Source of the DNA: a virus
Strand: one strand, 5' to 3'
Virus record (IMG/VR): IMGVR_UViG_3300021087_000654
Coordinates: 1 to 64,000 of that record
DNA length: 64,000 nt
Shown here: positions 10,284 to 62,509 of the stretch, one piece after another
Position numbering within the stretch: position 1 is the stretch's first letter
Layout of the letters: each line of letters opens with the position of its first letter
Notes under the pieces: generated by a model
The model's database searches: none
What the model was told of the DNA's origin: nothing
The model's input: only the letters and a program-made list of their open reading frames with translations
Translations under genes and position numbers: made by a program

Positions 10284-11216
10284 TTATGCTTTTACAATCT
10301 TTAATACGTGAGTTGCCGCTGTGGATGTTGATCCTCCAGGGAACTCCTGAGCTCTGTAATCATCGCCTCCAACTTGATTAGTTGCGTAAGTAGCACCATC
10401 TAGTATAGTATTAGCCATACCTGATCCTCTTGTCGTTCCTGATCCGTTGAAATTATATCTAATAGTATATCCGTCTCCTGAACTAGCAGCTGTATACTTA
10501 ATCCAAGCTTGACAAAGTGTGTCAAAACCTGCACCAGTTTCCTGTAGGTCATTTGATCCGTCTATATTTAAAAGACTTGCGTATGAAGACGTAGCACCAT
10601 TTACTCTTTGTAAATAGTAACTAGTAATCGTTGTAGGGTTATCAAGTGCGTGTGATCCAATCGTACCAGCAGCATAAGCGCCTGTGTTGGCTCTTGTGTC
10701 TACAAATATCGGCGTGGATGCTCCACTAACTTCAGTGGCACCAGCAACAGAAGCAGCTGTTGATACAAAATATGTACCCCCTTGTTGCGTTGTTGTGGTA
10801 CTTGCTGTAAGTAGATCAATAGCAGGATGTAAGAACGTATCCTTAATATCTGCTAAAGGCATTGCTTGAACTTCTCCACCACTTGTGTAGTAAATTGGCC
10901 AAGTTTTGCCTGAGTCAGCTGTCGGCGAACCGGGCGTAACTGTTTGTTCTACTTTATCATAGTTAACTGTAACTGTTTGTGGGTCTTGTGTTGTTCCTTG
11001 ACTAGGAAAAGAGGACGCATGAGTCGAATGTGTACCTGCTTGTTTTCTAGTATCGCTTATTGATCCTAGATTACCGCCACTACCTTGAACAGACAGAACA
11101 ACTGACGGACTTTGAGAATATTGATAAACAATATTATCAACGACTGCGTCAATCTGAGCTGAAGTCATTTCAATTAAATTACCCCCACTGTATATTAATG
11201 GGTTTCGTGTAGCCAT
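10284..11216 (-). CDS. Putative virion structural protein
   Basis: A 310-residue protein without a named family that I can recognise. It begins MATRNPLIYSGGNLIEMT, which looks like structural proteins of marine T4-like phages, and is rich in Ser, Thr, Gly and Ala with no membrane segment or catalytic motif. It sits in the fibre block, upstream of a terminator and downstream of the collagen-like 11282-12214 gene, with an AGAAGGAGAAAA ribosome site. A decoration, whisker or fibre role is inferred from position and composition only. Confidence 0.7.
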   Translation of the reverse strand: MATRNPLIYSGGNLIEMTSAQIDAVVDNIVYQYSQSPSVVLSVQGSGGNLGSISDTRKQAGTHSTHASSFPSQGTTQDPQTVTVNYDKVEQTVTPGSPTADSGKTWPIYYTSGGEVQAMPLADIKDTFLHPAIDLLTASTTTTQQGGTYFVSTAASVAGATEVSGASTPIFVDTRANTGAYAAGTIGSHALDNPTTITSYYLQRVNGATSSYASLLNIDGSNDLQETGAGFDTLCQAWIKYTAASSGDGYTIRYNFNGSGTTRGSGMANTILDGATYATNQVGGDDYRAQEFPGGSTSTAATHVLKIVKA

Positions 11217-11281
11217 ATTTTATTTTCTCCTTCTTTTGTTTTCTGTTAAGATAATTATTATTAGTTAGTAACTATCTGCTA

Positions 11282-12214: not shown

Positions 12215-12305
12215 TTTGTTTGTCTCCTAATTTATTGTTTTGTTTTGTCTTTTTTAATTAAAAAATTCAATACTGTACATCTTATAACAATTATTTTATC
12301 TTGCA

Positions 12306-12325
12306 AGAAAGGTTTCGTTCTTTCT
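12306..12325 (-). promoter_or_regulatory. Hairpin at the 5' end of a predicted late message
   Basis: AGAAAG / CTTTCT with an 8-base loop. Its first base is +2 of the message predicted from the late box at 12332-12339. It has no T tract on the minus strand. A 5'-end stabilising role is inferred. Confidence 0.4.
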
Positions 12326-12331
12326 ACAATC

Positions 12332-12339
12332 TATTTATA
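12332..12339 (-). promoter_or_regulatory. T4-type late promoter box
   Basis: Minus-strand TATAAATA in the 180-base gap between two fibre genes, predicting a start near 12326 and a leader of about 112 bases for the 11282-12214 gene. Confidence 0.75.
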
Positions 12340-12347
12340 ATATATAA

Positions 12348-12375
12348 ACACTATACAAGACATATAATATAGTGT
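12348..12375 (-). terminator. Possible weak terminator after the 12395-14005 gene
   Basis: An inverted repeat ACACTATA / TATAGTGT with a 12-base loop, followed on the minus strand by TTTATATATT. It lies 20 bases past the stop of the fibre gene and just before a late promoter, the same terminator-then-promoter order as at 10175-10248. It is AT-rich, so its strength is doubtful. Confidence 0.35.
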
Positions 12376-12394
12376 CCATCAAAATTTATTTTAT

Positions 12395-14005: not shown

Positions 14006-16041
14006 TAGCTAATCTCCACATATGTTGTTCCTGGTTGTAAAGTAAATCCGTATAAGTGATAAGGCTCTGCAACGAATCCTGATGGCGCTGCTGTTGGTAT
14101 TAAGCCAACTAATCCACCATCTGTAGTAGATACATCACTTAATAATCCAGCACTAGCACCAGTTTTAAATGTTGTTGGTTGTGTAACCGAATTCCTTACA
14201 GCAAACCAAAAAGCACGAGGATTAGAATCACTATTGTTCACTGCTTGGACGGAAAAATCATGAGTCTGATTGGCTAGTTGATTTGCTGCTGAGTCGAAAC
14301 CGGTTGACGTACTATCATCTATTATATCTGTAAGTGTGGGAGGGGATCCTACACTTGTACTCCAAATCCAAAAACTTGGATATGAAAATGTAGCAGATAC
14401 GTTTGAAGTTGTTGATGATTGCGTGTCGGTGTACGATGAACCGGTTACGTTTACAGGTCTTGTGAAAGTCGTTGTGTTTGAAATTGTACGTGTTGTTCCA
14501 GTATTGTCTTTATGTATTGGATCAGTAAACGTAAATGTACCACTAACGTATCCACTTCCTGATGTGTTGTTCAAAGAACCTCCTGCTGCTGTTAAACTAT
14601 GTGAAGTATTACTATTAGTTAAAATATTACTTACATTAGTAGAGTAAGAGGTACTTGAATATGTTTTTAAGAATGTTTCACCACTCTTATTACTTTTAGA
14701 TAAACTATGAGAAGCTGTTCCCCAATTGACCGAGAAACTAGTATCTGAAGCTGTATATTCTTGCTCAGTACCATTGTTATGATTAAATTTAATTGTAGCT
14801 CCTGCTGAACCACCACTACGAGTAGTTGATGTTGATCTAATAAATGAACTTGAATTGTTTGTAGTGAAAGATTGATTCCAATCTACACCACCAGCCGGTG
14901 TTTGTGAATAACTACCTGCTGAATAATTAGTTAAAGTTCCGTTAACACTTCCACTTGTTTGAGTGATAGAGTAAACTGAACTTATAAAATCATTTGTAAC
15001 GTCACTAGGGTTATCTACTGATACAGAAAATCCTGTAACTGGTTGATCCCATTTTGGAGAAGTTGGAGAACTACTTGCTGAAAATGTTGGAGTAAATGTT
15101 GCTAAAGTTAATCTTAAAAGATCACTTGAAAATTCTGCTGTTCTAATTGTATTTGTTGTACCACCTTCTTTATAACCTGTAAGTGTTCTATAATCTCCTG
15201 AAGTTGTAAATACAAATGGAGAACCTGTACCTGTACCTGCTGAACCAGTGAAACCAATTGCACCTACTGATCCTGTAAATCCTGTTCCTGCTGAACCAGT
15301 GAAACCAACAGCGCCTGCTGTTCCTGCGTCACCTTTTGATCCTGAATAACCTAAATCACCTTTTGATCCAGAAAATCCAACTGCACCTGTAGCTCCAATA
15401 TCACCTTTTGATCCTGAATAACCTAAAGTTCCTTTTGATCCTGTAAAACCAACTGCACCAGCAGCTCCTGAATCTCCTTTTGATCCAGTATAACCACCAC
15501 CTGGTCCTTGAGCACCAACTGATCCTGTGAAACCTGCACCTGTTGATCCAGTAAAACCTAAACCTCCAGTATCTCCTTTTGATCCTGAAAATCCAACTGT
15601 ACCAGCTGCTCCAGTATCTCCTTTTGATCCTGAAAATCCAACTGCACCTGTAGCTCCAATATCACCTTTTGATCCAGTGAAACCTGCACCTGTTGATCCT
15701 GTAAAACCAACGGCGCCATCCGAACCATCTGTACCGTCAACACCTTTTGATCCTGTGTATCCTGCACCTACTGATCCAGTGAAACCTACTGTACCTAGAT
15801 CGCCTTTTGATCCAGTATAACCAACAGCACCTGCTGATCCAGTGTAACCTGCACCTGCTGATCCTGTATAACCTAAACCTCCGACTGATCCTGAATATCC
15901 TTGTGAACCGGAATAACCACCGGGTGAGCCTGCAACTCCAGCTGCTCCAGCTGATCCTGTGAAACCTGCTGTACCCGCCGATCCAGTATAACCTATACGC
16001 CCTAGGCCTACTCTTACTCCTGCGCCTTTAATTACTGGCAT
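14005..16041 (-). CDS. Large collagen-like tail fibre/adhesin
   Basis: A 678-residue fibre. Residues 14-272 are an almost unbroken Gly-X-Y run (GYTGSAG, GFTGSKG and GFSGSKG units), the longest in the window. Residues 275-678 are Ser/Thr/Asn-rich beta-type sequence (GSVNGTLTNYSAGSY, TFTFTDPIHKDNTGT) ending in YHLYGFTLQPGTTYVEIS, likely the receptor-facing part. A GGGGGATAAG ribosome site precedes the ATG. Its promoter is half of the palindromic late promoter at 16109-16120, shared back-to-back with the glycosyltransferase gene at 16159. That pairing suggests, but does not prove, a link between fibre and glycan enzymes. Confidence 0.83.
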   Translation of the reverse strand: MPVIKGAGVRVGLGRIGYTGSAGTAGFTGSAGAAGVAGSPGGYSGSQGYSGSVGGLGYTGSAGAGYTGSAGAVGYTGSKGDLGTVGFTGSVGAGYTGSKGVDGTDGSDGAVGFTGSTGAGFTGSKGDIGATGAVGFSGSKGDTGAAGTVGFSGSKGDTGGLGFTGSTGAGFTGSVGAQGPGGGYTGSKGDSGAAGAVGFTGSKGTLGYSGSKGDIGATGAVGFSGSKGDLGYSGSKGDAGTAGAVGFTGSAGTGFTGSVGAIGFTGSAGTGTGSPFVFTTSGDYRTLTGYKEGGTTNTIRTAEFSSDLLRLTLATFTPTFSASSSPTSPKWDQPVTGFSVSVDNPSDVTNDFISSVYSITQTSGSVNGTLTNYSAGSYSQTPAGGVDWNQSFTTNNSSSFIRSTSTTRSGGSAGATIKFNHNNGTEQEYTASDTSFSVNWGTASHSLSKSNKSGETFLKTYSSTSYSTNVSNILTNSNTSHSLTAAGGSLNNTSGSGYVSGTFTFTDPIHKDNTGTTRTISNTTTFTRPVNVTGSSYTDTQSSTTSNVSATFSYPSFWIWSTSVGSPPTLTDIIDDSTSTGFDSAANQLANQTHDFSVQAVNNSDSNPRAFWFAVRNSVTQPTTFKTGASAGLLSDVSTTDGGLVGLIPTAAPSGFVAEPYHLYGFTLQPGTTYVEIS
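15226..16002 (-). repeat. Gly-X-Y repeat run
   Basis: About 259 codons of collagen-like triplets. The repetitive DNA also leaves long open frames in other phases (e.g. plus strand 15527-15820), which are shadows. Confidence 0.9.
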
Positions 16042-20002: not shown

Positions 20003-21355
20003 TTAAGATTGTATGTGTAATTCGTTTTTCTTTTTAGGGTGTTCAAATCCAATTGATCTTCTATCTTCATTAAGTTTATCAGATTTATATCTTTCAATTT
20101 TTTCAAGACAGTGTTCTTGGAATTGGTAACCTAGTTCAACTCCTAATTCATATAGTCTTATAAATCTTTCAAATCTTATATCAAAATCAGAGTTTTTATT
20201 CTTCCATTTAAAACCAAACTCACTATCAAATAACTCTCTATGTTCAAAATCTAATGGAGTATTTTTAAAAGTCATCATCACGTGGTGAGATATACTTATT
20301 AAATGTGAATACTTTTTATAATCTCTCAAAAGTTGTAGAGTATCTTCAAACATTTTTTCCGTTTCCGTAGGATATCCGACAATAAGTAAAAACTTCATAG
20401 TAATATTCCGTTTTCCGAGGTTGTCAACAAAGTATTTTATATCTTCGTTTGTAAATTTCTTTCTCATATGATTTCTAACTTCTTCATTACCTGACTCTAA
20501 ACCCATTTCTAAACCATTGCAACCAGAATTTTTTAAATTATCAAAGTCTTCTTGTGAGAAAGTCTTTTGATCTCTTACAATAAACTGTGCCTCCCATTTA
20601 ATCTTTTTAGGTCTGCTAGATAACTCTCTACATAAATCTCTAAAATGTTTCATAGAGCCGTTAATTAATGAATCTGAAAAGTGTATTTTATTTGTACCTG
20701 TTTGTTCAGAAACATGGTGCATTTCATCAGCGATTTTCTTACCTGTCTTCCATCTAAATTTAGGCCATATACTTGCAACATCACAAAAGGTACAGTTACG
20801 AACACAACCTCTTGATCCTGATATTACAAATTTCCTATAATTTTGATGTTGTATTACGTCTGAATAATCTGGTGGTGGTAAGTCTTCTATGTTTTCAATT
20901 TGTACTGGTTTTTTTCCGTTGATACCAGGATAATCAAAGTTGCCATTTAAAAATTCTCGTAAGGCATACTCTCCTTCTCCTGTTATATAATATTTTGTAG
21001 GCCAATCTATATCAACTCCTGATCCACCATAAAATGTATTTTCAAATCTTTTACCTAGATTTAAACCATCTTCTTTTTGCATAAAAGAAAATACTGATAT
21101 GCCTAACCATCTAAAATTGTATTTGTTTATTTCTTTTTGAATGTTGTCTAGTGTATCATACATATGACCATCAACAACTTTAATTTTAAATCCTAATGGT
21201 TCTAGATACCCTTTTAAAAAAGATGGACCAGGTGCCGGTTTAGATTTATCCATTCCTGGTAGTGACGTTATAACAGCGTCATATAATATATTTTCTTTAA
21301 TCACTTCTCCTGCTCTAGGCCATCTTTCTTCAGCCGTAGGAAATCTATCAGTCAC
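20003..21355 (-). CDS. B12-binding-like radical SAM protein
   Basis: About 450 residues. The N-terminal third is a cobalamin-binding-like Rossmann domain (YDAVITSLPG; DGHMYD at about 62-67, close to DxHxxG but ending in Asp; GISVFSFM; ITGEGEYAL). The core radical SAM domain carries the CxxxCxxC cluster motif C184/C188/C191 (GCVRNCTFC), then NKIHFSDSLI and GLEMGLESGN, as in the class B methyltransferase/cyclase group. I chose the GTG at 21355 because GGAG lies 9 bases upstream; a TTG at 21370 is the alternative. It overlaps the upstream hydroxylase-like gene by 8 bases. The substrate is unknown; these enzymes often act on lipids, hopanoids, peptides or cofactors. Confidence 0.85.
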   Translation of the reverse strand: MTDRFPTAEERWPRAGEVIKENILYDAVITSLPGMDKSKPAPGPSFLKGYLEPLGFKIKVVDGHMYDTLDNIQKEINKYNFRWLGISVFSFMQKEDGLNLGKRFENTFYGGSGVDIDWPTKYYITGEGEYALREFLNGNFDYPGINGKKPVQIENIEDLPPPDYSDVIQHQNYRKFVISGSRGCVRNCTFCDVASIWPKFRWKTGKKIADEMHHVSEQTGTNKIHFSDSLINGSMKHFRDLCRELSSRPKKIKWEAQFIVRDQKTFSQEDFDNLKNSGCNGLEMGLESGNEEVRNHMRKKFTNEDIKYFVDNLGKRNITMKFLLIVGYPTETEKMFEDTLQLLRDYKKYSHLISISHHVMMTFKNTPLDFEHRELFDSEFGFKWKNKNSDFDIRFERFIRLYELGVELGYQFQEHCLEKIERYKSDKLNEDRRSIGFEHPKKKNELHIQS

Positions 21356-21809
21356 TTGGTAAAGCTCCAACTATATGTGTTCTTAAACAATCTTTAGAAC
21401 AATTTAATGCTGTATGAAATTTTGTTGTGTCAACAACATATGCCTCTCCTGTGGCTGGCAAATGTATTCTTTCATTATCAACTAATAAAAAACAATGTTC
21501 ATGTGTGTTTACTGGTATGTGTAATCTTTTTGTTAAGTCAGCATGCCAAAGATAACATGCTTTAGGTTTCATTTTCATTATCCTTGTTCGTAATAAATTA
21601 TGGTCATCCATGATAGCGTTGATATAAGGGAGATCAAATAGCGGAACATTATACAAATGTTCAGCATTATCTATTTCATATCCCTTACCAGCGCCTGCTT
21701 GGGGATCCATATCCTTGGAATCACCTTGTAAATATATTTGTTTACCATACTCTGGTAAACTTTCCACTTCTTTTTTAATTCTTTCTAAATCGTATTGATA
21801 AGTTTTCAT
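21348..21809 (-). CDS. Small 2OG-Fe(II) aspartyl/asparaginyl hydroxylase-like protein
   Basis: A 153-residue jelly-roll-type protein. The motif WHADLTKRLHIPV (about 104-116) offers an HxD iron pair and a conserved KRxHIP, followed by DTTKFHTALN with the distal histidine and LRTHIVG with a candidate 2-oxoglutarate-binding arginine. This resembles the Asp/Asn beta-hydroxylase family. A clear paralogue is at 39266-39715, with the same HxDxxKRxHIP and DTTKxHTAxN boxes. It lies between the YdcH-like gene (ATGA overlap) and the B12 radical SAM gene. The target could be a protein side chain or a small metabolite; neither is shown. Confidence 0.78.
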   Translation of the reverse strand: MKTYQYDLERIKKEVESLPEYGKQIYLQGDSKDMDPQAGAGKGYEIDNAEHLYNVPLFDLPYINAIMDDHNLLRTRIMKMKPKACYLWHADLTKRLHIPVNTHEHCFLLVDNERIHLPATGEAYVVDTTKFHTALNCSKDCLRTHIVGALPSD

Positions 21810-22050: not shown

Positions 22051-22926
22051 ATGACCAGATTAAATATAATTGTCACAAGTAAACCTGGAGATGGACTATT
22101 ACACTATAGTTATGAACAATGTAGCTATTTAAAAAAACTAGGAATTGACGCAAGAGTTGTTGTAATACCACACCCAAAATATTCAGAAGAATCTTATATA
22201 ACTGCAATGTCAGAAAAGTATATAAATTATGAACCTATGTATTTTGATTATGAAGAAAAGGAAAAAGAAGTCAATTTAATTATGGGTAGAAGTATGTTAA
22301 CTCTAGCATATAGGAGTATTAAAGATTACGATAAAGATACACAATTAACTTTACGTTTATTATTTAAACTACCTCTTATATCTGTTTATTCAGAAAACCA
22401 CCCAAAAGATTATCCATTAGCATTAGAATTTTTTAAACCTAAAAAAGTAATTGACTTATGCGACCACGAAGTTTATACCAATGGTGTAGGTAGACAATTT
22501 GAAAAAATTATTAACTATAGTATATACAAACCTATAGTAAGAGATATTAAGTTTAGGAATTTATTTTTAGGCACAAATGAAAGTTATTATAAAGAAATAA
22601 AAAAATATATTATTAAATATGCAAATCATGGTATCTTGGCATACAAAGATAAGTATATTGATTATAATTTAAATCACGTATTTGTACCTGTAAAAAATTT
22701 ATTAGGTATGTTTGATACTTACGTTTATACTAAACATACTTTTGATCCGGCACCAAGATTAATGCAAGAGTGTCGTTTCTTTGGAATGAATTTTATATAT
22801 GCAAGGGATTGGAATATTAAAGACGGAGGACCTGTTTACTATAAAAGGCCTGCTAACTGTCTTACTGATCCTGTTAATAAACCAAATATAGAAGTAATTA
22901 TAAAGGCAATGAATGACATACTTTAA
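22051..22926 (+). CDS. Glycosyltransferase-like protein of unknown specificity
   Basis: A 291-residue protein. It has a GT-B-like appearance: an N-terminal nucleotide-type strand RLNIIVTSKPGDGLLHYSYEQCSYLKKLG, like the start of GT4 enzymes that bind an acceptor near a Gly-rich loop, and a C-terminal DPAPRLMQECRFFGMNFIYARDW, where an acidic residue and a following Gly/Asn-rich turn mimic the GT4 donor site. It lacks a clean catalytic signature, so I call it glycosyltransferase-like only. It is the first gene behind the plus late promoter and overlaps the next gene by 14 bases. Confidence 0.6.
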   Translation: MTRLNIIVTSKPGDGLLHYSYEQCSYLKKLGIDARVVVIPHPKYSEESYITAMSEKYINYEPMYFDYEEKEKEVNLIMGRSMLTLAYRSIKDYDKDTQLTLRLLFKLPLISVYSENHPKDYPLALEFFKPKKVIDLCDHEVYTNGVGRQFEKIINYSIYKPIVRDIKFRNLFLGTNESYYKEIKKYIIKYANHGILAYKDKYIDYNLNHVFVPVKNLLGMFDTYVYTKHTFDPAPRLMQECRFFGMNFIYARDWNIKDGGPVYYKRPANCLTDPVNKPNIEVIIKAMNDIL

Positions 22927-23578
22927 AACAAGATCATGGGTAAATGTGGATTCTTCTCATAGATGTCCTTTAGAATGTCCTAATTGTCAAAGACAAACAG
23001 CATTTACATTTAAAGGTAAAGTGGTTCATGGCCGAGATTTAAAAATGGATGAAATAGAAAAATTAGCAAAACATTTTAAGTCTTTTGTTTTCTGTGGACA
23101 GTTATCTGATCCAATACATCACCCTAAATTTCCTACAATATTAAATAGATTACATGAACTTGAAATACCGGAAGTTTTAGTACACAATGCCTCTACAGCA
23201 AAACCTATGGCATGGTACATTAAATCTTGGAAAGCAAATCCAAATGCTTTGTGGACTTTTGCGTGTGACGGTTTACCTAAAGATAGTCACAAGTATAGGA
23301 AAAATCAAAACGGAGAAAAAATGTTTGAAATAATGAAAGAGTCAATTAAACATTTAAATACAATACCAATATGGCAGTTTATAATATTTAATTATAATGA
23401 AAATGATATAGAAGAAGCTAAGATTATGGCTAATAGTAATGGAATAGATTTTCTGTTAACACAATCTTCCAGATGGAAAGATAGAGACGGAAAACCAGAC
23501 CCATTGTTACCAACAGGAAAATATAAACCAGTATTAAAAAATAAATTACCAGGCAGGAGATTATATGAAGAATATTAA
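22913..23578 (+). CDS. Radical SAM core protein, split pair copy 1
   Basis: A 221-residue radical SAM core. The cluster motif is C18/C22/C25 in SHRCPLECPNCQRQ. The usual GGEP segment is replaced by FCGQLSDPIHHPKF, and a strand with CDGLPKDSHKYRKNQ follows. At 221 residues it lacks the C-terminal SPASM or twitch region, which instead seems to be encoded by the next gene (23565-23948), overlapping it by 14 bases. An almost parallel pair follows at 23948-24957 and a third lies at 61093-62167. The reaction is unknown; split, coupled partners suggest an obligate two-subunit enzyme. Confidence 0.85.
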   Translation: MTYFKTRSWVNVDSSHRCPLECPNCQRQTAFTFKGKVVHGRDLKMDEIEKLAKHFKSFVFCGQLSDPIHHPKFPTILNRLHELEIPEVLVHNASTAKPMAWYIKSWKANPNALWTFACDGLPKDSHKYRKNQNGEKMFEIMKESIKHLNTIPIWQFIIFNYNENDIEEAKIMANSNGIDFLLTQSSRWKDRDGKPDPLLPTGKYKPVLKNKLPGRRLYEEY

Positions 23579-23948
23579 ATTAAGACCTCGCTGTCTTCCT
23601 AATCCAGATGATCCAAATCATGTAGAACAGCCTTTAGCAATAAACAATAGAGGTTATTTGTTACCTTGTTGTTGGTGTGATGAAAGAGTTGTGACTAATA
23701 GTGAAAAGTTTAAAAAAATATATGACGTAAGTAAACTTGAAAACTTTGATACAGTTGAACAATTAATGGATCAACCAGAATGGAAAGAATTTGAAAATGA
23801 TTTAATCAGAGCTAGAGACGTAGGAGATAATCTAGAAAAAATAAATGGTGTCTGTATTCATCACTGTAAAGAAAGAGAAGAAATAGATAAGATAAAAGTA
23901 GAAACAACATTTAGAGACGGAAAAGAACTAAAGAAAGAAACGAAATAG
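23565..23948 (+). CDS. SPASM-like Fe-S partner protein, split pair copy 1
   Basis: A 127-residue Cys-rich protein that looks like a detached SPASM/twitch domain: C10 in RPRCLPNPD, then NNRGYLLPCCWCD (C35, C36, C38), a helical EWKEFENDLIRAR, and CIHHCK (C97, C101). The N-R-G-Y-L-x-P-C-C box is the classic start of a SPASM auxiliary cluster site. It begins inside the radical SAM gene (14-base overlap) and ends at a TAGTG junction with the next pair. It probably supplies an auxiliary [4Fe-4S] cluster and substrate site to the 22913-23578 core. Confidence 0.8.
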   Translation: MKNIKLRPRCLPNPDDPNHVEQPLAINNRGYLLPCCWCDERVVTNSEKFKKIYDVSKLENFDTVEQLMDQPEWKEFENDLIRARDVGDNLEKINGVCIHHCKEREEIDKIKVETTFRDGKELKKETK

Positions 23949-24586
23949 TGGAAAGATATTTTAAAAAAAGACGTAGGTTAAATTTAGATGTGACCCATAG
24001 ATGTCCTCTTGAATGTCCTAACTGTCAAAGACAAACATCGTTTACCAATGATGGTTTGGTACCTCATGGACGTGATCTAACGTTAGATGAATTAGATATG
24101 ATAGCAAAACATTTTGTAGATATTGGTTTTTGTGGACAGTTATCGGATCCTGTACATCACCCTAAATTTAATGAAATAATGAAAATGCTTAAAGATGTGC
24201 CAGAGGTTTTTGTTCATAATGCAGCTACAGCTAAACCTATATCTTGGTATATTAAATCTTGGCAGGCAAATCCAAAAGCAGTTTGGATATTTGCTTGTGA
24301 TGGTCTTCCTAAAGACAGTCATAAATATAGGAAGAATCAAGATGGTATAAAAATGTTTGAGATAATGAAAGAGGCCAAAAAACACTTATTGAGTACACCA
24401 GTGTGGCAATATATTAGATTTAAATATAATGAAAACGATATTGAAACAGCAAAGAAAATGGCCGAAGATGAAGGATTAAGTTTTATACAAATAGAATCTT
24501 CAAGGTGGTTGGGTGATGATGATCCTTTTAAACCTACAAACTCATTAAAATCAAAGGCGGCTGTTTACAAAGGTACAACTAAATGA
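23948..24586 (+). CDS. Radical SAM core protein, split pair copy 2
   Basis: A 212-residue paralogue of the 22913-23578 protein, starting at a GTG that shares one base with the upstream TAG. The cluster motif is C19/C23/C26 in THRCPLECPNCQRQ, with the same FCGQLSDPVHHPKF and CDGLPKDSHKYRKNQ boxes. Identity to copy 1 is high across the whole length, so this and the next gene look like a tandem duplication of a two-gene unit. Its stop overlaps the partner start (ATGA). The second copy may have a different substrate or form a hetero-assembly with copy 1. Confidence 0.85.
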   Translation: MERYFKKRRRLNLDVTHRCPLECPNCQRQTSFTNDGLVPHGRDLTLDELDMIAKHFVDIGFCGQLSDPVHHPKFNEIMKMLKDVPEVFVHNAATAKPISWYIKSWQANPKAVWIFACDGLPKDSHKYRKNQDGIKMFEIMKEAKKHLLSTPVWQYIRFKYNENDIETAKKMAEDEGLSFIQIESSRWLGDDDPFKPTNSLKSKAAVYKGTTK

Positions 24587-24957
24587 AATTAAAACCTAAA
24601 TGTTTACCTGATCCAGATAACAAAGACTTTCAACCTATGCCTTTGGCAATAGATAATAGAGGTCATTTAATACCTTGTTGTTGGTGCGATCACCCTAAAA
24701 CAACAACGTCTGAATTATATAAACCTCTTTATAAAGTTAGTAAGCTTAAAGATTATAATAGTATAGATGAAATACTTGATACGAAAGAATGGAAAGAATT
24801 TGAAGATGATCTAGTACAGGCTAGAGATATAGGAGACAATATAAATAAAATTAATCAAACTTGTCTCTTTCATTGTAAGGCAAGAAAGTCAGATGACAAT
24901 ATAAAAATTGAAACTTATTATGAAAAAGGTAAAGAAGTAGCAAAGGATATTAAATAA
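24583..24957 (+). CDS. SPASM-like Fe-S partner protein, split pair copy 2
   Basis: A 124-residue paralogue of the 23565-23948 protein with the same five-or-more-cysteine layout: C7 (KPKCLPDPD), DNRGHLIPCCWCD (C32, C33, C35) and CLFHCK (C94, C98). It starts by ATGA overlap with the radical SAM core and ends by TAATG overlap with the DegT gene, so expression of the whole series is tightly coupled. Confidence 0.8.
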   Translation: MKLKPKCLPDPDNKDFQPMPLAIDNRGHLIPCCWCDHPKTTTSELYKPLYKVSKLKDYNSIDEILDTKEWKEFEDDLVQARDIGDNINKINQTCLFHCKARKSDDNIKIETYYEKGKEVAKDIK

Positions 24958-26051
24958 TGGACGCATGGAAATTTGAATATGAATTAGATAAAGAGAACTA
25001 TACTAAACTCTTTGATGAATGTATGAAAGAAGATCAGGAACAAAATATAGAGTTTCTGGAAAAAACAATTAAAGATATAATACCAAGAAAATATGCTGTA
25101 GCTTGTCAAAACGGTACAGACGCTTTAATGTTTTCTTTAAAATGTTTAGGCATAGGACCAGGTGACGAGGTATTAACAACTAACTTTTCTTGGATATCCA
25201 CTGCCTCTTGTATATCTATGGTAGGTGCTAAACCTGTATTTTGTGATATTAATATTTTAAACTATCATATGTCATTAGATAGTATTAAAAAGATGTATTC
25301 TTCAAAAGTAAAAGCAATAGTTTATCCACATCTATTTGGTAATATGTCTGATACAAAAGAAATTATAGAGTGGTGTTTTTCAAAAAATGTTCACTTTATA
25401 GAAGACGCAGCTCAAGCCATAGGGTCAAGTTTTAATGGTAAACTGGCAGGAACAATAGGAGATTTTAGTACCATAAGTTTTAATGCCAACAAAACTATTG
25501 GTGGTATAGCTGGTGGTGGAGTTGTATTGACAGATAGAAAAGATTGGGCTGACACATGTATTAAGTTAAGAAAACATGGTAACCACGACCTTCTAGGATA
25601 CAATTCTAAAATGTTATTCTTTAATGCTAAATTTATTGATTATAGATTAAAGAAGTTAAATGAGTATATAGAAAAAAAACAAGCCATAGCCAAAATGTAT
25701 GATGAACAATTAAAAGATTATGTGACCGTACAACCAACATCTAACGGTGTTAACCATACATATCATAAATATGTTATTAGATTACAAAACAAAGAAGTAA
25801 GGGATAAAGTTAAAGACAAATTAGGTGCAAAGGTACATTATAATAAACCTATATCAGAAAATCCTATGTATAGAAATTTACACCCATATGAGTTTTCTGG
25901 AAATATACATTTTGAAAATATTAAACATAGAAAAGATGATTTGTTTATTACACAAACGGTATGCGATACCATATTGACTTTACCTATACACCCTTATATG
26001 AAGAAAGAAGAGGTTGATAAAATTATTAACACGATCTTAATATTAGTATGA
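24957..26051 (+). CDS. DegT/DnrJ/EryC1/StrS-type PLP aminotransferase
   Basis: A 364-residue sugar-aminotransferase-type PLP enzyme. ACQNGTDALMFSLKCLG (49-65) binds the PLP phosphate, HFIEDAAQAIGSSFNGKLAGTIGD (146-169) carries the ED pair, and SFNANKTIGG includes the Schiff-base lysine K179. The C-terminal HKYVIRL and IHPYMKKEEVDKII are typical for the family. Such enzymes transfer an amino group from glutamate to a nucleotide-linked keto sugar. It is slightly short, with a shortened region after about residue 210. TAATG and ATGA overlaps join it to its neighbours. The sugar substrate is unknown; candidate partners are the epimerase (42418-43152) and glycosyltransferases here. Confidence 0.92.
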   Translation: MDAWKFEYELDKENYTKLFDECMKEDQEQNIEFLEKTIKDIIPRKYAVACQNGTDALMFSLKCLGIGPGDEVLTTNFSWISTASCISMVGAKPVFCDINILNYHMSLDSIKKMYSSKVKAIVYPHLFGNMSDTKEIIEWCFSKNVHFIEDAAQAIGSSFNGKLAGTIGDFSTISFNANKTIGGIAGGGVVLTDRKDWADTCIKLRKHGNHDLLGYNSKMLFFNAKFIDYRLKKLNEYIEKKQAIAKMYDEQLKDYVTVQPTSNGVNHTYHKYVIRLQNKEVRDKVKDKLGAKVHYNKPISENPMYRNLHPYEFSGNIHFENIKHRKDDLFITQTVCDTILTLPIHPYMKKEEVDKIINTILILV

Positions 26052-26356
26052 TAGAAATAATAGCAAGTCCAGATTTAGATAAAATTAGTTATATTGATAG
26101 TAACGAAAATCCTGTTCCTATAACAGATCAAAATCTTATCAAGACTTGTCAAATGATGAAAAGAGTATTAGGCACCAGTGATATATTTGATGAGAAATTA
26201 ATTAATGAATATAATGAACCAGTGTATGAATATATTGTTGAGAAAACTTATATAATGCCAGAGTATGATTATGGTCCAGTATATTTTAAAGATAAACCAA
26301 AACAAAAAATGAAGATTGCATTTAACAAATTATTCTATGAAAAAATTAATAGTTAG
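26048..26356 (+). CDS. Hypothetical protein
   Basis: A 102-residue acidic protein with no family I recognise. No membrane segment or conserved cysteine cluster is evident. It has clusters of Tyr, Asp and Lys (EYNEPVYEYIVEKTYIMPEYDYGPVYF). It starts by ATGA overlap with the aminotransferase and ends 20 bases inside the SGNH-like gene. The tight packing supports it as real. Confidence 0.6.
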   Translation: MIEIIASPDLDKISYIDSNENPVPITDQNLIKTCQMMKRVLGTSDIFDEKLINEYNEPVYEYIVEKTYIMPEYDYGPVYFKDKPKQKMKIAFNKLFYEKINS

Positions 26357-27170
26357 TGGAGATAGTTGTACAGATTTAACTTTTGAATCTCCTGTCCACC
26401 CTACATGGGATTACTCATGGCCAAAATGGCCTGAACATTTAGCAAAACATCTAGGTATGGAACTAGTTTGTTTAGGTAAAGGTGGACAAGGTAATCAATT
26501 TATCTACAGCACTCTATTAGATGAGATAACTAAAACAAAAAAAGATACAATAGGTTTAGTTATAGCTGCATGGTCTCAAAGTCATAGAAAAGATTGGGAA
26601 TTAGGACATGTACCTGGACCTAGAGTAAATTATGAAGTAGGTTTAAAACAGTTATGGAGATCAAAAAGAGTAGATGAAGATGGCGATATATTACATTGGG
26701 TAACTAAAAGTTTAAGAACATATTTAAGTTTTCAGATACTTTGTGAAAGATACAACCTACCTTACTATCATTTTCAAATGGGAGACTTATTTGAGAACTA
26801 TATGAAAGTGTTAGGACCTACGGAAACTGACAGATTACTAGGACAACCTGTTGATGAATCGTTCAAATATACAGGAGACCTTGAAAGAGATAAAATAAGA
26901 GTAATACATAAGGTATTAGAGTATGGTAAATGGATAAATAGATTCATAGGTTGGCCAGGACTACAAAGCCACCTTGATATTGGCGGATTCAATTTGCAAC
27001 AGCACGTATTAGGGGATAATTTAGTAGACCAACTAGCAAACGGAACAGTTATATCAAAATATGATGACCATCCGAATGCAAAAGGCCATAAATTAATAGC
27101 TACATTTTTAGCAAATAATATAGATTTGCCGAAACTAGCAACTGAAATAGAAAAAGGAGATAAGAAATGA
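26337..27170 (+). CDS. SGNH-hydrolase-like protein
   Basis: About 277 residues. The GDS block I (LIVSGDSCTDLTF, residues 4-16), KGGQGNQFIYS as candidate Gly/Asn blocks II-III, VIAAWSQSHRKDW, and the C-terminal DDHPNAKGH with the Asp-His pair match the SGNH/GDSL hydrolase layout. The ATG at 26337 is chosen because the domain starts there and an upstream in-frame TTG at 26316 would only add residues inside the previous gene. A paralogue is at 59779-60762. Likely ester or acetyl-group hydrolysis on a glycan is inferred. ATGA overlap with the nitroreductase gene follows. Confidence 0.72.
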   Translation: MKKLIVSGDSCTDLTFESPVHPTWDYSWPKWPEHLAKHLGMELVCLGKGGQGNQFIYSTLLDEITKTKKDTIGLVIAAWSQSHRKDWELGHVPGPRVNYEVGLKQLWRSKRVDEDGDILHWVTKSLRTYLSFQILCERYNLPYYHFQMGDLFENYMKVLGPTETDRLLGQPVDESFKYTGDLERDKIRVIHKVLEYGKWINRFIGWPGLQSHLDIGGFNLQQHVLGDNLVDQLANGTVISKYDDHPNAKGHKLIATFLANNIDLPKLATEIEKGDKK

Positions 27171-28852: not shown

Positions 28853-29704
28853 ATGTCTATAACTTATGATGGTAAAGAAATTGCATTTTTTAAATTTCCA
28901 GTAAAGCAAGTCGTACTAGCTTTATCAGGCGGAACGGATTCGGCTGCCATTCTTTATCTAATATGTAAAAAATTTCCAGATGTGGAAATTATACCATATA
29001 ATTGTGAAGATGTTGATAATCCATATGATATGCAGGCAGCCGAAAAAATTATAGAAGTTGTTAAAGGTTGGTTTCCTGATAATAAGATTAGACCTTTGGT
29101 AAAGGGAATTTATAACGATCAAGACGAGACACTCTTTCCAAAGGCAATAATAGAAATTGGAGTTAATCCACATTGGGCTACCGAAAAAGATAAAGCAAAC
29201 GCTTCAAAAGAAGAACATATAGCTTTAATAAAAAAATATCAACCCAAGAGTTTAGATTATTATATTGAACATTTTAGATGGCTTAATATATTATTAACAC
29301 CTCTCATTATAACTAGGGTAACAAAGACTTTATATTTAGATAAATTAAAAGGTGAAATGAGAGCCAAATATCCTAACGCATACCTTGTAAATGGTATGAC
29401 CAGAAATCCTCCAATAGAAGAACAAAAGAAATATCCGGTAATGTATCAACTAGCCGAAACAAGAAGAAATCCTAATGATAAAATTAGAAACACAAGAGGT
29501 CCAAAAAACGTTTATATTCCTTTTGCTAATGTTGATAAAAAGTTTGTAGCAGCTATATATAAGGAGGAAAAATTAATGAAAGATATATTTCCTCTCACAA
29601 GATCATGTGTAGGTGTAGCAAACTTAACTGATAACTATACGAAAAACTGCCACCAATGTTTTTGGTGTTATGAAAAGAAATGGGCGTTTGATTTAAAATG
29701 GTAG
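28853..29704 (+). CDS. QueC-like PP-loop ATP pyrophosphatase, copy 1
   Basis: A 283-residue protein. The PP-loop SGGTDS (25-30) in VVLALSGGTDSAAILYLI binds ATP for adenylation of a carboxyl or amide. The C-terminus has C252, C266, C269 and C272 in a CxxCFWC pattern followed by EKKWAF, matching the zinc-binding C-x-n-CGxCxxCxxR..AF end of QueC (7-cyano-7-deazaguanine synthase). An insertion (about 85-165) makes it longer than QueC. The rest of the preQ0 pathway is not in the window, so a different amidation, ligation or thiolation reaction is equally likely. A paralogue is at 36924-37679. Confidence 0.78.
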   Translation: MSITYDGKEIAFFKFPVKQVVLALSGGTDSAAILYLICKKFPDVEIIPYNCEDVDNPYDMQAAEKIIEVVKGWFPDNKIRPLVKGIYNDQDETLFPKAIIEIGVNPHWATEKDKANASKEEHIALIKKYQPKSLDYYIEHFRWLNILLTPLIITRVTKTLYLDKLKGEMRAKYPNAYLVNGMTRNPPIEEQKKYPVMYQLAETRRNPNDKIRNTRGPKNVYIPFANVDKKFVAAIYKEEKLMKDIFPLTRSCVGVANLTDNYTKNCHQCFWCYEKKWAFDLKW

Positions 29705-30352: not shown

Positions 30353-31192
30353 ATGAAGTTTGATCTTACATATGCACAAAAAAACTATTTAGCGGTAGAT
30401 TTCTTTCTATCAATGTCTTGTAATAAAGACTGCCACTATTGTACAAGTTATACTCTAGAAATGAGAAACTTAACAGTAGATTTAGTTTTTTTAAGAAAAT
30501 GTTTAGAGGCTTTAAAGCCTTATAAAACTAGGATATGTTTACTTGGTGGAGAACCAGGTTTAATTAAGAACTTACGTGAAGTTATATCAATGGTAAAAGA
30601 ATATCCTAATTTCATTTGTCAAGTTTTATCTAACTCTTTTATAAGAAAAAGGTATCCTGAAATACTAGAAGATCCAGAAATATTATATGTAGAACACTTA
30701 ACATTGGATTTTTATCCAGATGAAATAAAAAAATTAGGTAACTATGAATATTTAGAGCCAAATGAAATGAATAACTATAACGTAGTACTTAAAACACCTA
30801 ATTACTTTAAATACATAGCAAACTATCCAGAATTTAAAAAGAAATTAAACCACAAAAATACTATGTTCAAAGCATTTAATGGTAGAACACCATCTAAAGG
30901 TGACGTAGAAGAAGTACACCAACAGGCGGCTGAAATAGACCGTAAAATGTGTGCCGCTTTTCCAATGGTACCTGTTATTGATTTTGAAAAAAGACACATA
31001 GTACACTGTAGTAAAAAATTTGCAAATAACACCGAATTGTCTAGGTCTTTCCCTATGACAAAAGAAAATATTGATAAGATGATGAACTTTCAATTATTTA
31101 AATACGAAAGGTATTGTGTGACATGTAAAGAGTACGTACAACCAAAGGGACACTTCCCTATTGAGAAGTACGCTAATATATTAAATAGATAA
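30353..31192 (+). CDS. Radical SAM protein with C-terminal Cys cluster
   Basis: A 279-residue protein. The cluster motif is C23/C27/C30 (SMSCNKDCHYCTSY) and the SAM-binding GGEP box is intact (CLLGGEPGL, about 61-69). The C-terminal part has KMCAAFP, IVHCSKK and YCVTCKEY, a SPASM/twitch-like set of auxiliary cluster cysteines within the same chain, unlike the split pairs. It follows ribB by 22 bases and precedes the SufT-like gene by 10 bases, placing a radical SAM enzyme directly beside an Fe-S maturation factor. The substrate is unknown. Confidence 0.85.
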   Translation: MKFDLTYAQKNYLAVDFFLSMSCNKDCHYCTSYTLEMRNLTVDLVFLRKCLEALKPYKTRICLLGGEPGLIKNLREVISMVKEYPNFICQVLSNSFIRKRYPEILEDPEILYVEHLTLDFYPDEIKKLGNYEYLEPNEMNNYNVVLKTPNYFKYIANYPEFKKKLNHKNTMFKAFNGRTPSKGDVEEVHQQAAEIDRKMCAAFPMVPVIDFEKRHIVHCSKKFANNTELSRSFPMTKENIDKMMNFQLFKYERYCVTCKEYVQPKGHFPIEKYANILNR

Positions 31193-31202
31193 GGAGTAAA
31201 TT

Positions 31203-31601
31203 ATGAATGAAACAGATGATCCAGATTTAAGAGTGCCTAAACCCGCTGTTGACGCACAACTTAATGCTACACTAGAAGATATTACAGACCATCAAGAAAC
31301 TCGTTTAGAGTATATTAATCATATTACAGAGAAACTTAAAACTTGTTATGATCCTGAAATTTCTACAGACATTTATACACTTGGACTTATATATGATGTT
31401 AAAGTGACAGAAGCAAGATATGTTTTTGTTTTAATGAGTTTAACGTCTGCTTTTTGTCCGGCAGTAGATGAAATAGTTAATGGAGTTAAAATGGCAGTTG
31501 AAAGTATACCAGGACTAAAATGTAATGTTAGAATTACAATGACACCTATGTGGACTAGAGATATGATTGATCCCGAAATAAGAGAGTTAATGGGACTATA
31601 A
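31203..31601 (+). CDS. SufT/MIP18-like Fe-S assembly protein (DUF59)
   Basis: A 132-residue member of the DUF59 family, which helps deliver Fe-S clusters. DPEISTDIYTLGLIYDV (about 50-66), then VLMSLTSAFCPAVDEI with conserved C85, and TMTPMWTRDMIDPEIRELMGL match the family from end to end. AAGGAG precedes the ATG. Family members act in cytosolic Fe-S protein maturation. Placement directly after a radical SAM gene suggests service to the island's Fe-S enzymes, together with the A-type carrier at 62186-62509. Confidence 0.88.
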   Translation: MNETDDPDLRVPKPAVDAQLNATLEDITDHQETRLEYINHITEKLKTCYDPEISTDIYTLGLIYDVKVTEARYVFVLMSLTSAFCPAVDEIVNGVKMAVESIPGLKCNVRITMTPMWTRDMIDPEIRELMGL

Positions 31602-31624: not shown

Positions 31625-33145
31625 ATGAAAATTTTTGCTGTTGCAATAAACTTACACGACCATAACACCTATGACGGTGTTTATCATAATCAATTAGAAA
31701 GACACACAAGATTTAAACATAACTTACCATACAAAGCAGAAGCTTATAATCATCAATCAGATATATTAAATCCTGGTGATTATACTTTAAATGATAGATT
31801 TGTAGCAGATCATGTTAAAAAAGAACCTGATACTCTTTTCGCATTTACATATACTTATGGTGGTATAAGAAAAGCAAAAGAAGAATTATGGAATACTATA
31901 TTTAAAGGTCACGATGAAATTTTAGATTATGAAGTCAAAACATTATGGCAAAGACACTATAAAGATGGCATTTATTATATTGACCATCATCAATCACATG
32001 CCGCTTATGCATTTTTAAATTCAGGTTATAAACAAAGTGATATACTTGCAATAGATGGTATTGGCTCAAGATATAGATGTGTATTCTTTGACAGAGACGG
32101 CAACGCAACTGATCTATCAGATAAACTTCCTATCGGGTGGTTGTGGAATCATATGTCTAATCTTACAGGTTTCGGAACATTAGGTGCAAGTAAACTTATG
32201 GGTAAAGTTGGTTATGGAAAACATAGTGACTATTACTATAATGTATTATCTCAAATATTAGAAGGACCTATATTAGAAAGAAAATATCCAGAATGGAAAC
32301 AAATTAAACTTCAAAAACATGGTATAAATGACCTAGCATACACACTACAAGAAATTACAATGGAAAGAATTAAAGAACATATCTACCCATTAAAAACATC
32401 CGACAATCTTTGTCTTGCTGGTGGTGTAGCTTACAATGGTTATGTAAATGAAATGTTTACCGAAAAATGGGATAATGTTTTTATTCCACCTGCAATTGGT
32501 GATGAAGGCCAAGCTATTGGTACTTATCAACATGCTGAATATACAATAAACAATAGAGTACACAAGTCTAACGTATTTGCCGGCAAATCATACGAGTATC
32601 TAGGCGAAGAAAAATTAACGTCTTACAAAGAAGTAGCACAGGCAATTGCTGATGGTAAAATAGTAGGTTGGTTTCAAGGTAAATCAGAAAGTGGTAACAG
32701 AGCATTAGGTAATAGAAGTATATTAGCTGATCCTAGAAATCCAGAAATAAAAGATATTATCAATAGTACAATAAAAATGAGAGAAGATTTTAGACCATTC
32801 GCTCCAGCAGTTTTAGAAGAACATTATAAAGAATATTTTGATACAAAGAGTCCTAGTCCTTATATGTCAAGAATATGTAAGGTTAAAGAAGATAAAAAAT
32901 CAGTAATACCTGGCGTCACACACGTTGATGGTACTGCTAGAATACAAACAGTTAACAAAGAAGATAATAATAAATTTTATGAACTTATACGAGAGTTTGG
33001 TGTTATCACTGGTGTTCCTATGTTGCTTAATACAAGTTTCAATTGTCAAGAGCCTATAGTAGAAACACCTCAAAATGCATTAAGAACTTTTAAAAGAACA
33101 GGATTAGATATATTAATTATTAATGATTATATAATAAGAAAATGA
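31625..33145 (+). CDS. NodU/CmcH-family carbamoyltransferase
   Basis: A 506-residue enzyme that transfers carbamoyl from carbamoyl phosphate, usually to a sugar or natural-product hydroxyl. The Kae1-like N-terminal domain has the metal-binding DHHQSHAAYAF (about 120-130) and LAGGVAYNGYVNE (about 265-277). The YrdC-like C-terminal domain has GWFQGKSESGNRALGNRSILADPR (about 350-373) and PFAPAVLEEH. It is somewhat shorter than typical NodU (about 570). Such genes occur in other marine T4-like phages. A GAGGAG site precedes the ATG, and the stop overlaps the small gene at 33142 (ATGA). Confidence 0.93.
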   Translation: MKIFAVAINLHDHNTYDGVYHNQLERHTRFKHNLPYKAEAYNHQSDILNPGDYTLNDRFVADHVKKEPDTLFAFTYTYGGIRKAKEELWNTIFKGHDEILDYEVKTLWQRHYKDGIYYIDHHQSHAAYAFLNSGYKQSDILAIDGIGSRYRCVFFDRDGNATDLSDKLPIGWLWNHMSNLTGFGTLGASKLMGKVGYGKHSDYYYNVLSQILEGPILERKYPEWKQIKLQKHGINDLAYTLQEITMERIKEHIYPLKTSDNLCLAGGVAYNGYVNEMFTEKWDNVFIPPAIGDEGQAIGTYQHAEYTINNRVHKSNVFAGKSYEYLGEEKLTSYKEVAQAIADGKIVGWFQGKSESGNRALGNRSILADPRNPEIKDIINSTIKMREDFRPFAPAVLEEHYKEYFDTKSPSPYMSRICKVKEDKKSVIPGVTHVDGTARIQTVNKEDNNKFYELIREFGVITGVPMLLNTSFNCQEPIVETPQNALRTFKRTGLDILIINDYIIRK

Positions 33146-60762: not shown

Positions 60763-61093
60763 TTAAAAATATATCCTTTACTCTCCTATAAAATCTTTCT
60801 TTATTACTATAACCTACAAGTCTAACTAATTCTTTTCTACCATTCCATATTATAAATGTTGGTGTTCCTCTAATAGGTTTAATTCTGTTTTGAGCATACG
60901 CTTCTTTAAACCATTCAGGCTGATTATATAGATTAATAATAACCAAAGGTAATTCTTTGTTATCATAATCAATAGCAACCTCATCCATGAATTTATTACA
61001 AATGTGACATTTAGGATTGTGTGCCATTAATAATTCTAATGCTTGTATTGTTGTAGCATAAAACATTGCTAAAAGAAATACTAATATTTTCAT
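60752..61093 (-). CDS. Secreted thioredoxin-like protein
   Basis: A 113-residue protein with a signal peptide (MKILVFLLAMFYATTIQA, cleavage after about 18) and a thioredoxin fold: KCHICNKF with active-site C29-x-x-C32, and GTPTFIIW with the cis-proline. The likely location is the periplasm. Such proteins reduce or form disulfides in partner proteins. It is coupled by overlap both to the SPASM-like gene upstream (one base) and the SGNH-like gene downstream (11 bases). Confidence 0.85.
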   Translation of the reverse strand: MKILVFLLAMFYATTIQALELLMAHNPKCHICNKFMDEVAIDYDNKELPLVIINLYNQPEWFKEAYAQNRIKPIRGTPTFIIWNGRKELVRLVGYSNKERFYRRVKDIFLNEK

Positions 61094-61491
61094 TATTTTT
61101 TCTCCACACTTGTTGCTACACCTTTTTCAGTATCTATCCATTCTACCACTTGTGTATATTTTTTTAACTTAGCACATGTAGTCCTACATGCATTTGGTCC
61201 TATATTATTTGATAAGTCTTTTGCAAATTGTTTCCATTGTTTTGATTTTAATATATCTTCTATTTTATTGTTATCATTTATAACACTTGCGTTCAACATA
61301 TCTTTCATTAATGGGTCGTTCATTGTTTCTGGATCGTCCATTCTACAACAAGGTAGTAATACACCTTGATTAGTAACTGCTAAAGCAATTGCGTCTTTAA
61401 AACATAAAGGGTCTAACTCAACATCTCCTTCTGCTCTAGATGTTAGATTTAATAAATCAACACCTAAAGAGTTATCGGTAACTTTAGTCAT
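61093..61491 (-). CDS. SPASM-like Fe-S partner protein, split pair copy 3
   Basis: A 132-residue relative of the 23565 and 24583 proteins: C30 (LDPLCFKDA), NQGVLLPCCRMDD (C48, C49) and ACRTTCAK (C102, C106). The third Cys of the CCxC in the other two copies is missing here (CCRM). It overlaps the radical SAM gene by 8 bases, the same coupled layout as in the island although 37 kb away and on the opposite strand. Confidence 0.75.
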   Translation of the reverse strand: MTKVTDNSLGVDLLNLTSRAEGDVELDPLCFKDAIALAVTNQGVLLPCCRMDDPETMNDPLMKDMLNASVINDNNKIEDILKSKQWKQFAKDLSNNIGPNACRTTCAKLKKYTQVVEWIDTEKGVATSVEKK

Positions 61492-62167
61492 TTATTGTCC
61501 TTTTTGTTTTAGGCATTAACCAATCATCATCATCTGTCCATCTTGCACTATTAATTAATATAAAATTAACATCAGCCTCTTTGGCCATTTTCATTGCCTC
61601 ATCAAGACTATGTTCATTATAACTGAATATAATAAATTGCCATAAAGGTTTAGTTTGTAAATACTTTTTACTTTCTAACATTATATTAAATAGTTTTCTA
61701 CCATCTTGGTTTACTCTGTACTTATGACTTTCTTCAGGTATGCCATCTATACCAAATATCCAATTTGCTTTAGGGTTTGCCTTAAAGGCCTCTATATAAT
61801 GTTTCATAGGTTTTAAAGATGAAGCTAAATGTACTTCAACTTTAGTACCACGTTCTTTTGTGATTTTTAATAATTCGTTTATTTGTGGGTGATGTATTGG
61901 GTCTGAATATTGGCCACAAAAAGATATTCGTGGAAACCAATCCAATATTTTATTAAATTCAGGTATTGTTAAATCTCTGCCTGGTACTTTTAGGCCTTTA
62001 CTTGTAAAACTTCTTTGTCTACCACAACGTAAACACTCTAACGGACATCTATGAGATAAATCAATATTTAATCTCTTATGTCTTCTATCAAAAAAGGAAT
62101 TTTCCTTTATCTTGATACCGTGTTGTATCTCTGTACCTTCAATCTTTTCTCTATTTGTTTCAGCCAT
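61484..62167 (-). CDS. Radical SAM core protein, split pair copy 3
   Basis: A 227-residue radical SAM core with C41/C45/C48 (SHRCPLECLRCGRQ), FCGQYSDPIHHPQI in place of GGEP, and GIDGIPEESHKYRVNQ as in copies 1 and 2, with an extra N-terminal 22 residues. No C-terminal SPASM region; the partner is the downstream gene. CATAAATA 10 bases before the ATG is a weak late-box candidate. Confidence 0.82.
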   Translation of the reverse strand: MAETNREKIEGTEIQHGIKIKENSFFDRRHKRLNIDLSHRCPLECLRCGRQRSFTSKGLKVPGRDLTIPEFNKILDWFPRISFCGQYSDPIHHPQINELLKITKERGTKVEVHLASSLKPMKHYIEAFKANPKANWIFGIDGIPEESHKYRVNQDGRKLFNIMLESKKYLQTKPLWQFIIFSYNEHSLDEAMKMAKEADVNFILINSARWTDDDDWLMPKTKRTIND

Positions 62168-62185: not shown

Positions 62186-62509
62186 TTAGATACTAAATGA
62201 TGTTCCACAACCACATGATGATTTAGTATTAGGGTTTTTAAAATGGAAAGAACTACCAAAGATTTCTTCTTTGTAATCCAACTCCATACCTGCGACATAT
62301 ATTTCAAATAGATTATCTATTACTACTAGATTGTCAACTATAATATCATCTTTAGTTGGTGTCTTTTCAAAGTCGTTTGGTATAAATGACCATTCGTATT
62401 CGTGACCTGCACAGCCACCACCTTTGACTTCTAGTCTAACATAATCTACTTTATGTTTTGCTTTTAAATTATTTAAATGTGCTTTCGCACCTTCTGTTAA
62501 TGTAATCAT
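62186..62509 (-). CDS. A-type Fe-S carrier (IscA/ErpA/HesB-like)
   Basis: A 107-residue Fe-S carrier. The three conserved cysteines are C33 (KGGGCAGHEY) and C99/C101 (SSCGCGTSF), the standard C-x-n-CxC set. This family carries clusters to apoproteins. It sits directly upstream (minus orientation) of the third split radical SAM pair and joins the SufT-like protein as a second Fe-S helper. Similar genes are known in marine T4-like phages. Confidence 0.93.
   Translation of the reverse strand: MITLTEGAKAHLNNLKAKHKVDYVRLEVKGGGCAGHEYEWSFIPNDFEKTPTKDDIIVDNLVVIDNLFEIYVAGMELDYKEEIFGSSFHFKNPNTKSSCGCGTSFSI

Follow-up and report, generated by a model that had tools for sequence, protein, structure and literature searches.

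The window analysed here (positions 1 to 64,000 of IMG/VR virus record IMGVR_UViG_3300021087_000654) represents a 64.4-kb virus fragment with a GC content of 32%, in which a metabolic island is flanked on both sides by tail- or baseplate-type genes, structural names that were assigned from sequence reading. It encodes three pairs of overlapping genes, each consisting of a radical S-adenosylmethionine (SAM) barrel gene, here called the core, and a small gene for a stand-alone twitch-like domain (Table 1). While the twitch domain normally lies on the same chain as the radical SAM barrel, in these marine viruses related to SAR11 phages it is encoded by a small gene of its own. The pairs are best read as coding for a heteromeric radical SAM enzyme of the twitch type, whose auxiliary cluster resides on a second subunit; this architecture is well supported.

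Three pairs of core and small genes

All six open reading frames (ORFs) named in the original prediction were confirmed, together with their coordinates, motifs and overlaps, which measure 14, 4 and 8 nt in pairs 1, 2 and 3. When the tandem region was shuffled randomly (n=500), the longest open run averaged 62 codons and reached at most 141; because the shuffles give shorter open runs and a scan of viral contigs returned many relatives, the six ORFs are not chance products. Cores 1 and 2 are 65% identical and core 3 shares 52% identity with either of them, while smalls 1 and 2 are 52% identical and smalls 1 and 3 about 33% over 64 aligned residues. In the core tree, copies 1 and 2 form a clade with 100% support and copy 3 branches deeply, though weakly supported, so that the tandem pair represents a family-level duplication and the third pair an old paralogue. 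The proposed tandem duplication stands, whereas the third pair, taken initially for another copy, is a deep paralogue rather than a recent one.

The CX3CX2C motif is present in all three window cores, and its three cysteines are invariant in 31 diverse cores, of which 27 match the radical SAM profile PF04055 at E≤0.1. Core 1 itself matches PF04055 with an E value of 6.9e-6 and 26.8 bits, below the gathering score of 29.5. When solved structures were searched by sequence profile, the core family gave only a weak match to radical SAM proteins and the small family gave none. In the GQxSDP box the G, Q, S and D are invariant and the P is nearly so. Since fused relatives carry GSVGEP, GNYCEP or GAVCEP at this position, and a divergent split pair GLWGDP, the box is a variant of GGEP; the FCGQ sequence that had been singled out as odd does occur in all three cores, but it is not a new feature.

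The small family is defined by five invariant cysteines (C10, C35, C36, C97 and C101 in small 1 numbering) in the signature C-x(11-20)-G-x4-CC ... CxxxC, and each window small carries the later CxxxC after the box given in Table 1. The SPASM profile PF13186 matches 25 of 29 diverse smalls at E≤0.1 (best 8.6e-7), with the window smalls scoring below the Pfam gathering score. A full SPASM domain contains seven cysteines (CX9-15GX4C-gap-CX2CX5CX3C-gap-C) and two auxiliary clusters, and the twitch domain is a shortened SPASM with one cluster (PMC6231123). The CX2CX5CX3C block is absent from the smalls, whose invariant cysteines number only five, and full SPASM membership was rejected. Twitch-like is thus the better name, the earlier SPASM-like description holding as far as the PF13186 similarity goes. 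The CX9-15GX4C element is matched by small 3 (n=12) and by 18 of the 29 diverse smalls, while n is 16-20 in another 10, smalls 1 and 2 among them. In the AlphaFold model of small 1, which has a predicted local distance difference test (pLDDT) score of 90, a hairpin (25-33) is directly followed by C35 and C36, and a helix (71-85) precedes C97 and C101, the same layout as that of the twitch ligands of SkfB and BtrN (PMC6231123). Judged from these sequence features, the small subunit very probably binds an auxiliary cluster.

Table 1. Genes of the three core/small pairs and neighbouring members of the operon and island.
Feature	Coordinates	Strand	Length (aa)	Cluster motif and GGEP-position box (cores) or small-gene box (smalls)	Description
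Core 1	22913..23578	+	221	CPLECPNC; FCGQLSDPIHHP	Radical SAM barrel subunit
Small 1	23565..23948	+	127	NNRGYLLPCC	Stand-alone twitch-like, putative auxiliary-cluster subunit; upstream Shine-Dalgarno-like AGGAG
Core 2	23948..24586	+	212	CPLECPNC; FCGQLSDPVHHP	Tandem paralogue of core 1; GTG start
Small 2	24583..24957	+	124	DNRGHLIPCC	Overlap with core 2 is ATGA
Core 3	61484..62167	-	227	CPLECLRC; FCGQYSDPIHHP	Deep paralogue, 37 kb away
Small 3	61093..61491	-	132	TNQGVLLPCC	SPASM E value 6.7e-4
22051 family	22051..22926	+			No Pfam or NCBIfam family, weak PHROG match; directly upstream of core in most contigs
Aminotransferase	24957..26051	+			DegT/DnrJ/EryC1 (PseC/LegC-like), conserved neighbour
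Hydrolase	26316..27170	+			GDSL/SGNH-like (weak Pfam match), recurrent operon member
Second radical SAM enzyme	30353..31192	+		GGEP	Operon member; own C-terminal C...C...CVTC
Fe-S assembly protein	31203..31601	+			FeS_assembly_P (PaaD/MIP18-like)
Carbamoyltransferase	31625..33145	+			NodU-type, conserved operon member
Fe-S carrier	62186..62509	-			IscA/ErpA-type, immediately upstream of core 3

Distribution of separate and fused forms

To define how widely the split occurs, IMG/VR was scanned with the core alignment and with the small alignment, which identified 298 and 207 stretches encoding relatives, respectively; the family is therefore abundant in marine viruses, with 298 stretches from one scan. 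The best 80 of each scan were kept and 122 loci were examined, several of which overlap on the same contig, so that raw counts are not independent. They contain 147 core-then-small neighbours, 145 as separate genes and two as single ORFs. The non-redundant set comprises 53 pairs (46 core-small, 6 small-core and 1 fused), and a twitch domain as a same-chain C-terminal extension of the core is found neither in the three window pairs nor in 52 of these 53. Every complete core examined adjoins a small gene or a divergent equivalent, the remaining cores lying at contig ends. In six long IMG/VR records and the genome of Pelagibacter phage Mosig, cores and smalls number 2/2, 3/3, 2/2, 1/1, 1/1, 3/3 and 1/1, and one of these seven records has two smalls side by side and one weak core apart. 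A divergent core (FCGLWGDPL; L043/L044 and relatives) has its own 104-aa partner with an 8-nt overlap, a G-x4-CC and a late CxxxC, and it joins the split cores, as opposed to the fused Campylobacter-phage proteins, with 100% support.

Departures from the one-core, one-small arrangement also occur: two contigs (L054, 5971-7502; L062, 1478-3003) carry one core followed by two tandem, different smalls, and L053 has an extra small gene standing alone.

The most direct alternative is that an ordinary fused SPASM/twitch enzyme has been broken in this contig by a frameshift or assembly error. Fused forms do exist, in L097/L094 and as distant relatives in Campylobacter phages, yet aligning them reveals no frameshift in this assembly, and all three window pairs, 52 of the 53 non-redundant pairs and an isolate phage are split. 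The overlaps (mostly -1 to -25 nt) and the frames differ among relatives, one clade (support 74), which also includes one normal-order member, has small before core, and in L041 and L047 (same contigs as L013 and L019) a 261-aa QueC-like gene lies between core and small. Assembly error was rejected, independent contigs and the isolate phage showing the same split, and the chance that a frameshift or assembly error explains the pairs is close to nil.

A programmed frameshift within the overlap, producing a fused protein besides or instead of two subunits, would fit the overlap of most pairs and the mostly constant frame of the small gene with respect to its core. It is nonetheless highly improbable: overlap length and even the relative frame (two are used) vary among relatives, the mechanism is impossible for the reversed-order and gene-interrupted pairs, and the small genes have Shine-Dalgarno-like sites of their own. 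With start sites chosen mechanically, a Shine-Dalgarno-like tetramer was found upstream of 25 of 46 small starts, compared with 79 of 764 internal ATGs (p = 2.6e-12), and all three window small genes have such a site. The varied overlaps and frames, the inserted gene, the swapped order, the Shine-Dalgarno-like sites, the coevolution and the fusions, observed across contigs and an isolate, thus bear out the earlier claim of a two-subunit family as opposed to frameshifts.

The single-ORF form was found only in L097/L094. The 335-aa ORF of L097 places the core (6-203) before the small domain (216-323) in core-twitch order, with an internal methionine where the small genes begin, and it nests inside the split radiation with weak local support; being nested within the split family, it looks like a secondary fusion. 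A set rich in fused sequences provided the joint alignment of core and small. A profile scan for bacterial homologues gave matches in two contigs of metagenome-assembled genomes only, L183 and L184. The L183 contig (Planctomycetota) shares its length of 7,487 bases and its match position with L088 of the viral collection, and the L184 pair (Acidimicrobiia) lies near capsid-like and T4-like genes; both pairs, although binned as bacterial, probably come from viruses.

Probable association of the two subunits and comparison with known enzymes

Distances among cores and among smalls are correlated (r = 0.853), whereas 2,000 permutations reach 0.18 at most. Shared genome history was controlled, because partners swapped within a contig served as comparison: in 500 such trials the mean was 0.56 and none reached the observed r. 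The fused L097 protein was modelled with a pLDDT of 74.9 and a predicted template modelling score (pTM) of 0.76, and the model matches BlsE, anSME, SuiB, MoaA, SkfB, BtrN and DesII in the PDB along much of its length (BtrN: TMt 0.60, 10% identity). A viral library adds a match to a stand-alone protein of 112 aa. The natural fusions show the small gene to be the C-terminal domain of the same enzyme, and on this sequence-based evidence it is very likely that core and small form a physical complex.

A different role for the small protein would be that of an independent ferredoxin-like electron carrier or adaptor serving several radical SAM enzymes of the island, and not an integral twitch domain. 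Such a role would agree with the separate gene and with the contigs in which one core is accompanied by two smalls (L054, L062); given the natural core-twitch fusion, the SPASM-family similarity and the one-to-one coevolution of each small with its own core, we consider it unlikely.

Several observations weigh against the two-subunit twitch enzyme. Smalls 1 and 2 have a C-x-G spacing of 19, longer than the published CX9-15GX4C allows; the small-subunit model alone gave no significant match when searched with Foldseek against the PDB; and hhalign comparisons of the smalls with the Campylobacter-phage tails and with the N-terminal twitch are weak, covering the motif region only. Close linkage accounts for part of the mirror-tree correlation, and the L097 model is of low confidence in the linker and tail.

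Among isolated phages, Pelagibacter phage Mosig EXVC030M (MT647606, Kyanoviridae) is the nearest relative as far as these genes are concerned. Like the window, it encodes the two parts separately (Mosig_00084 and Mosig_00085, 55% and 36% identical), and the operon that holds them also contains DegT, radical SAM and carbamoyltransferase genes; unlike the window, it has one pair instead of three. The existing annotation calls the two genes simply 'putative molybdenum cofactor biosynthesis enzyme' and 'hypothetical protein'. BtrN (4M7T), MoaA, SkfB and BlsE (7VOB), which match the fused L097 model, also combine a barrel with one auxiliary-cluster domain, and twitch enzymes resemble the smalls in having cysteines before and after the hairpin and a cysteine pair after the helix (PMC6231123). 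The solved twitch enzymes are, by contrast, all single-chain, with sequence identities of 10-13%. Campylobacter phages CP220/F379 encode a core about 30% identical with a C-terminal CX13GX4C domain, in clusters that hold sugar-transferase and amidinotransferase genes, but as a single chain in which GxxGEP or GxxCEP replaces GQxSDP.

In the N_Twi_rSAM family (NF033640) the twitch is likewise not at the usual C-terminus, but it forms the N-terminal part of a single fused chain; small 3 matches the family weakly (22.3 bits, cut-off 170), and no core scores above the cut-off. A member of this fused type is encoded within the window itself, where 35616-36902 is a radical SAM gene with an N-terminal twitch (NF033640, 292.7 bits), so that one virus carries the auxiliary domain in two ways, fused at an N-terminus and encoded by genes of its own. 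GeoRSP_rSAM (TIGR04303) and GeoRSP_SPASM (TIGR04304) proteins form one GeoRSP system, in which a SPASM-named protein is also encoded apart from a radical SAM protein. Their models, with 325 and 293 positions, describe full-size chains and no core/domain split, and neither they nor TIGR04302 matched this record at E≤0.001.

Pelagimyophages have been described with a large hypervariable host-recognition island carrying tail fibres and glycosyltransferases, within which radical SAM cassettes distinguish two genomes (PMC7029224). A further report concerns an ocean virus of T4-like type whose 12 radical SAM genes are accompanied by Fe-S assembly genes (PMC5332604). According to the relevant passages of these papers, the viruses resemble the window in virus kind, island and enrichment, and those passages make no mention of a core/auxiliary split. 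Among the open-access titles and abstracts screened, no paper describes a radical SAM auxiliary-cluster domain as a separate subunit. Such subunits are overlooked by gene callers and profile libraries, as the sub-threshold window smalls and the 'hypothetical' gene of the isolate illustrate. While fused enzymes allow only mutation of the domain, separate proteins can be purified, reconstituted, mixed or omitted, which makes the role of the auxiliary cluster testable by adding versus omitting one protein.

Predicted reaction and gene context

The core, a partial TIM barrel with CX3CX2C and GQxSDP, would bind the SAM-cleaving [4Fe-4S] cluster and generate the 5'-deoxyadenosyl radical. The small protein, a twitch on its own chain with one cysteine before the β-hairpin, two after it and CxxxC after the helix, probably holds one fully cysteine-ligated auxiliary [4Fe-4S] cluster and would dock onto the barrel's open end, the position of the twitch in fused enzymes; the gene overlap and the nearby Shine-Dalgarno site may couple translation of the two subunits. 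The substrate radical would then pass an electron to the auxiliary cluster. In this scheme a sugar or cyclitol hydroxyl would be oxidised to a ketone and subsequently aminated by DegT, and the product may be a modified glycan for the virion or the host surface. This would follow a BtrN-like logic: BtrN uses a four-Cys auxiliary cluster to oxidise an aminocyclitol hydroxyl, ahead of the second amination on the way to butirosin. In two-electron oxidations, the auxiliary cluster has been proposed to accept an electron in BtrN and observed to do so in SuiB (PMC9012708).

By analogy, the chances that the reaction is a two-electron oxidation appear about even, and a sugar or cyclitol as substrate is a tentative assignment from gene context, suggested by the adjoining DegT, second radical SAM, carbamoyltransferase, methyltransferase and glycosyltransferase genes. 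Taken as a whole, a two-polypeptide radical SAM/twitch enzyme oxidising a sugar or cyclitol for amination seems a reasonably likely reading. Two points tell against its substrate: gene context is the sole basis of the assignment, and PseC/LegC-type transaminases normally obtain their keto sugar from a dehydratase, not from a radical SAM enzyme.

The pairs might instead encode a two-part peptide or protein maturase, RiPP-like (ribosomally synthesized and post-translationally modified peptide) or tail-fibre modifying. In NCBIfam, the core most resembles W_rSAM_matur and peptide maturases, with scores far below cut-off in every case; the genes adjoin tail-type genes; and SuiB, SkfB and anSME are among the fold matches. 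The neighbours are, however, glycan-type (DegT, carbamoyltransferase, glycosyltransferases), and no precursor-peptide or PqqD-type match turned up among those annotated, so that a maturase appears rather doubtful as an alternative to the sugar or cyclitol enzyme. The three pairs in the window, the two smalls per core in L054/L062 and the reversed order elsewhere led us to consider also that the small might be a trans-acting, exchangeable subunit, with cores and smalls of one virus combining and the small setting the reaction outcome of a shared core, which we regard as improbable.

The family marks a conserved biosynthetic operon, probably situated in the viral host-recognition island. Around 52 non-redundant cores, many on contigs ending nearby, the 22051 family was found near 42, the DegT aminotransferase within about six genes of 40, the SGNH-like protein near 32, the 30353-type radical SAM enzyme near 31 and the carbamoyltransferase near 28. 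The DegT protein resembles PseC/LegC nucleotide-sugar transaminases, and the island also holds methyl- and glycosyltransferases. In L027, an IscA-type carrier gene (826-1110) lies two genes upstream of the pair, among neighbours that otherwise differ.

QueC-like PP-loop proteins recur in the island, where they are encoded at 28853-29704 and 36924-37679, and the GDSL/SGNH-like family, sometimes present in several copies per contig beside the pairs, is represented by 26316-27170 and 59779-60762, whose products start SGDSCTD and GGCSWSD, respectively. A 455-aa, B12-type-like radical SAM protein is encoded at 20003-21370 (-), its top NCBIfam look-alike being the PhpK P-methyltransferases, far below cut-off. 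Adjoining the island, the region 8950-16041 (-) encodes tail-type proteins with collagen-like G-Y-T-G-S repeats.

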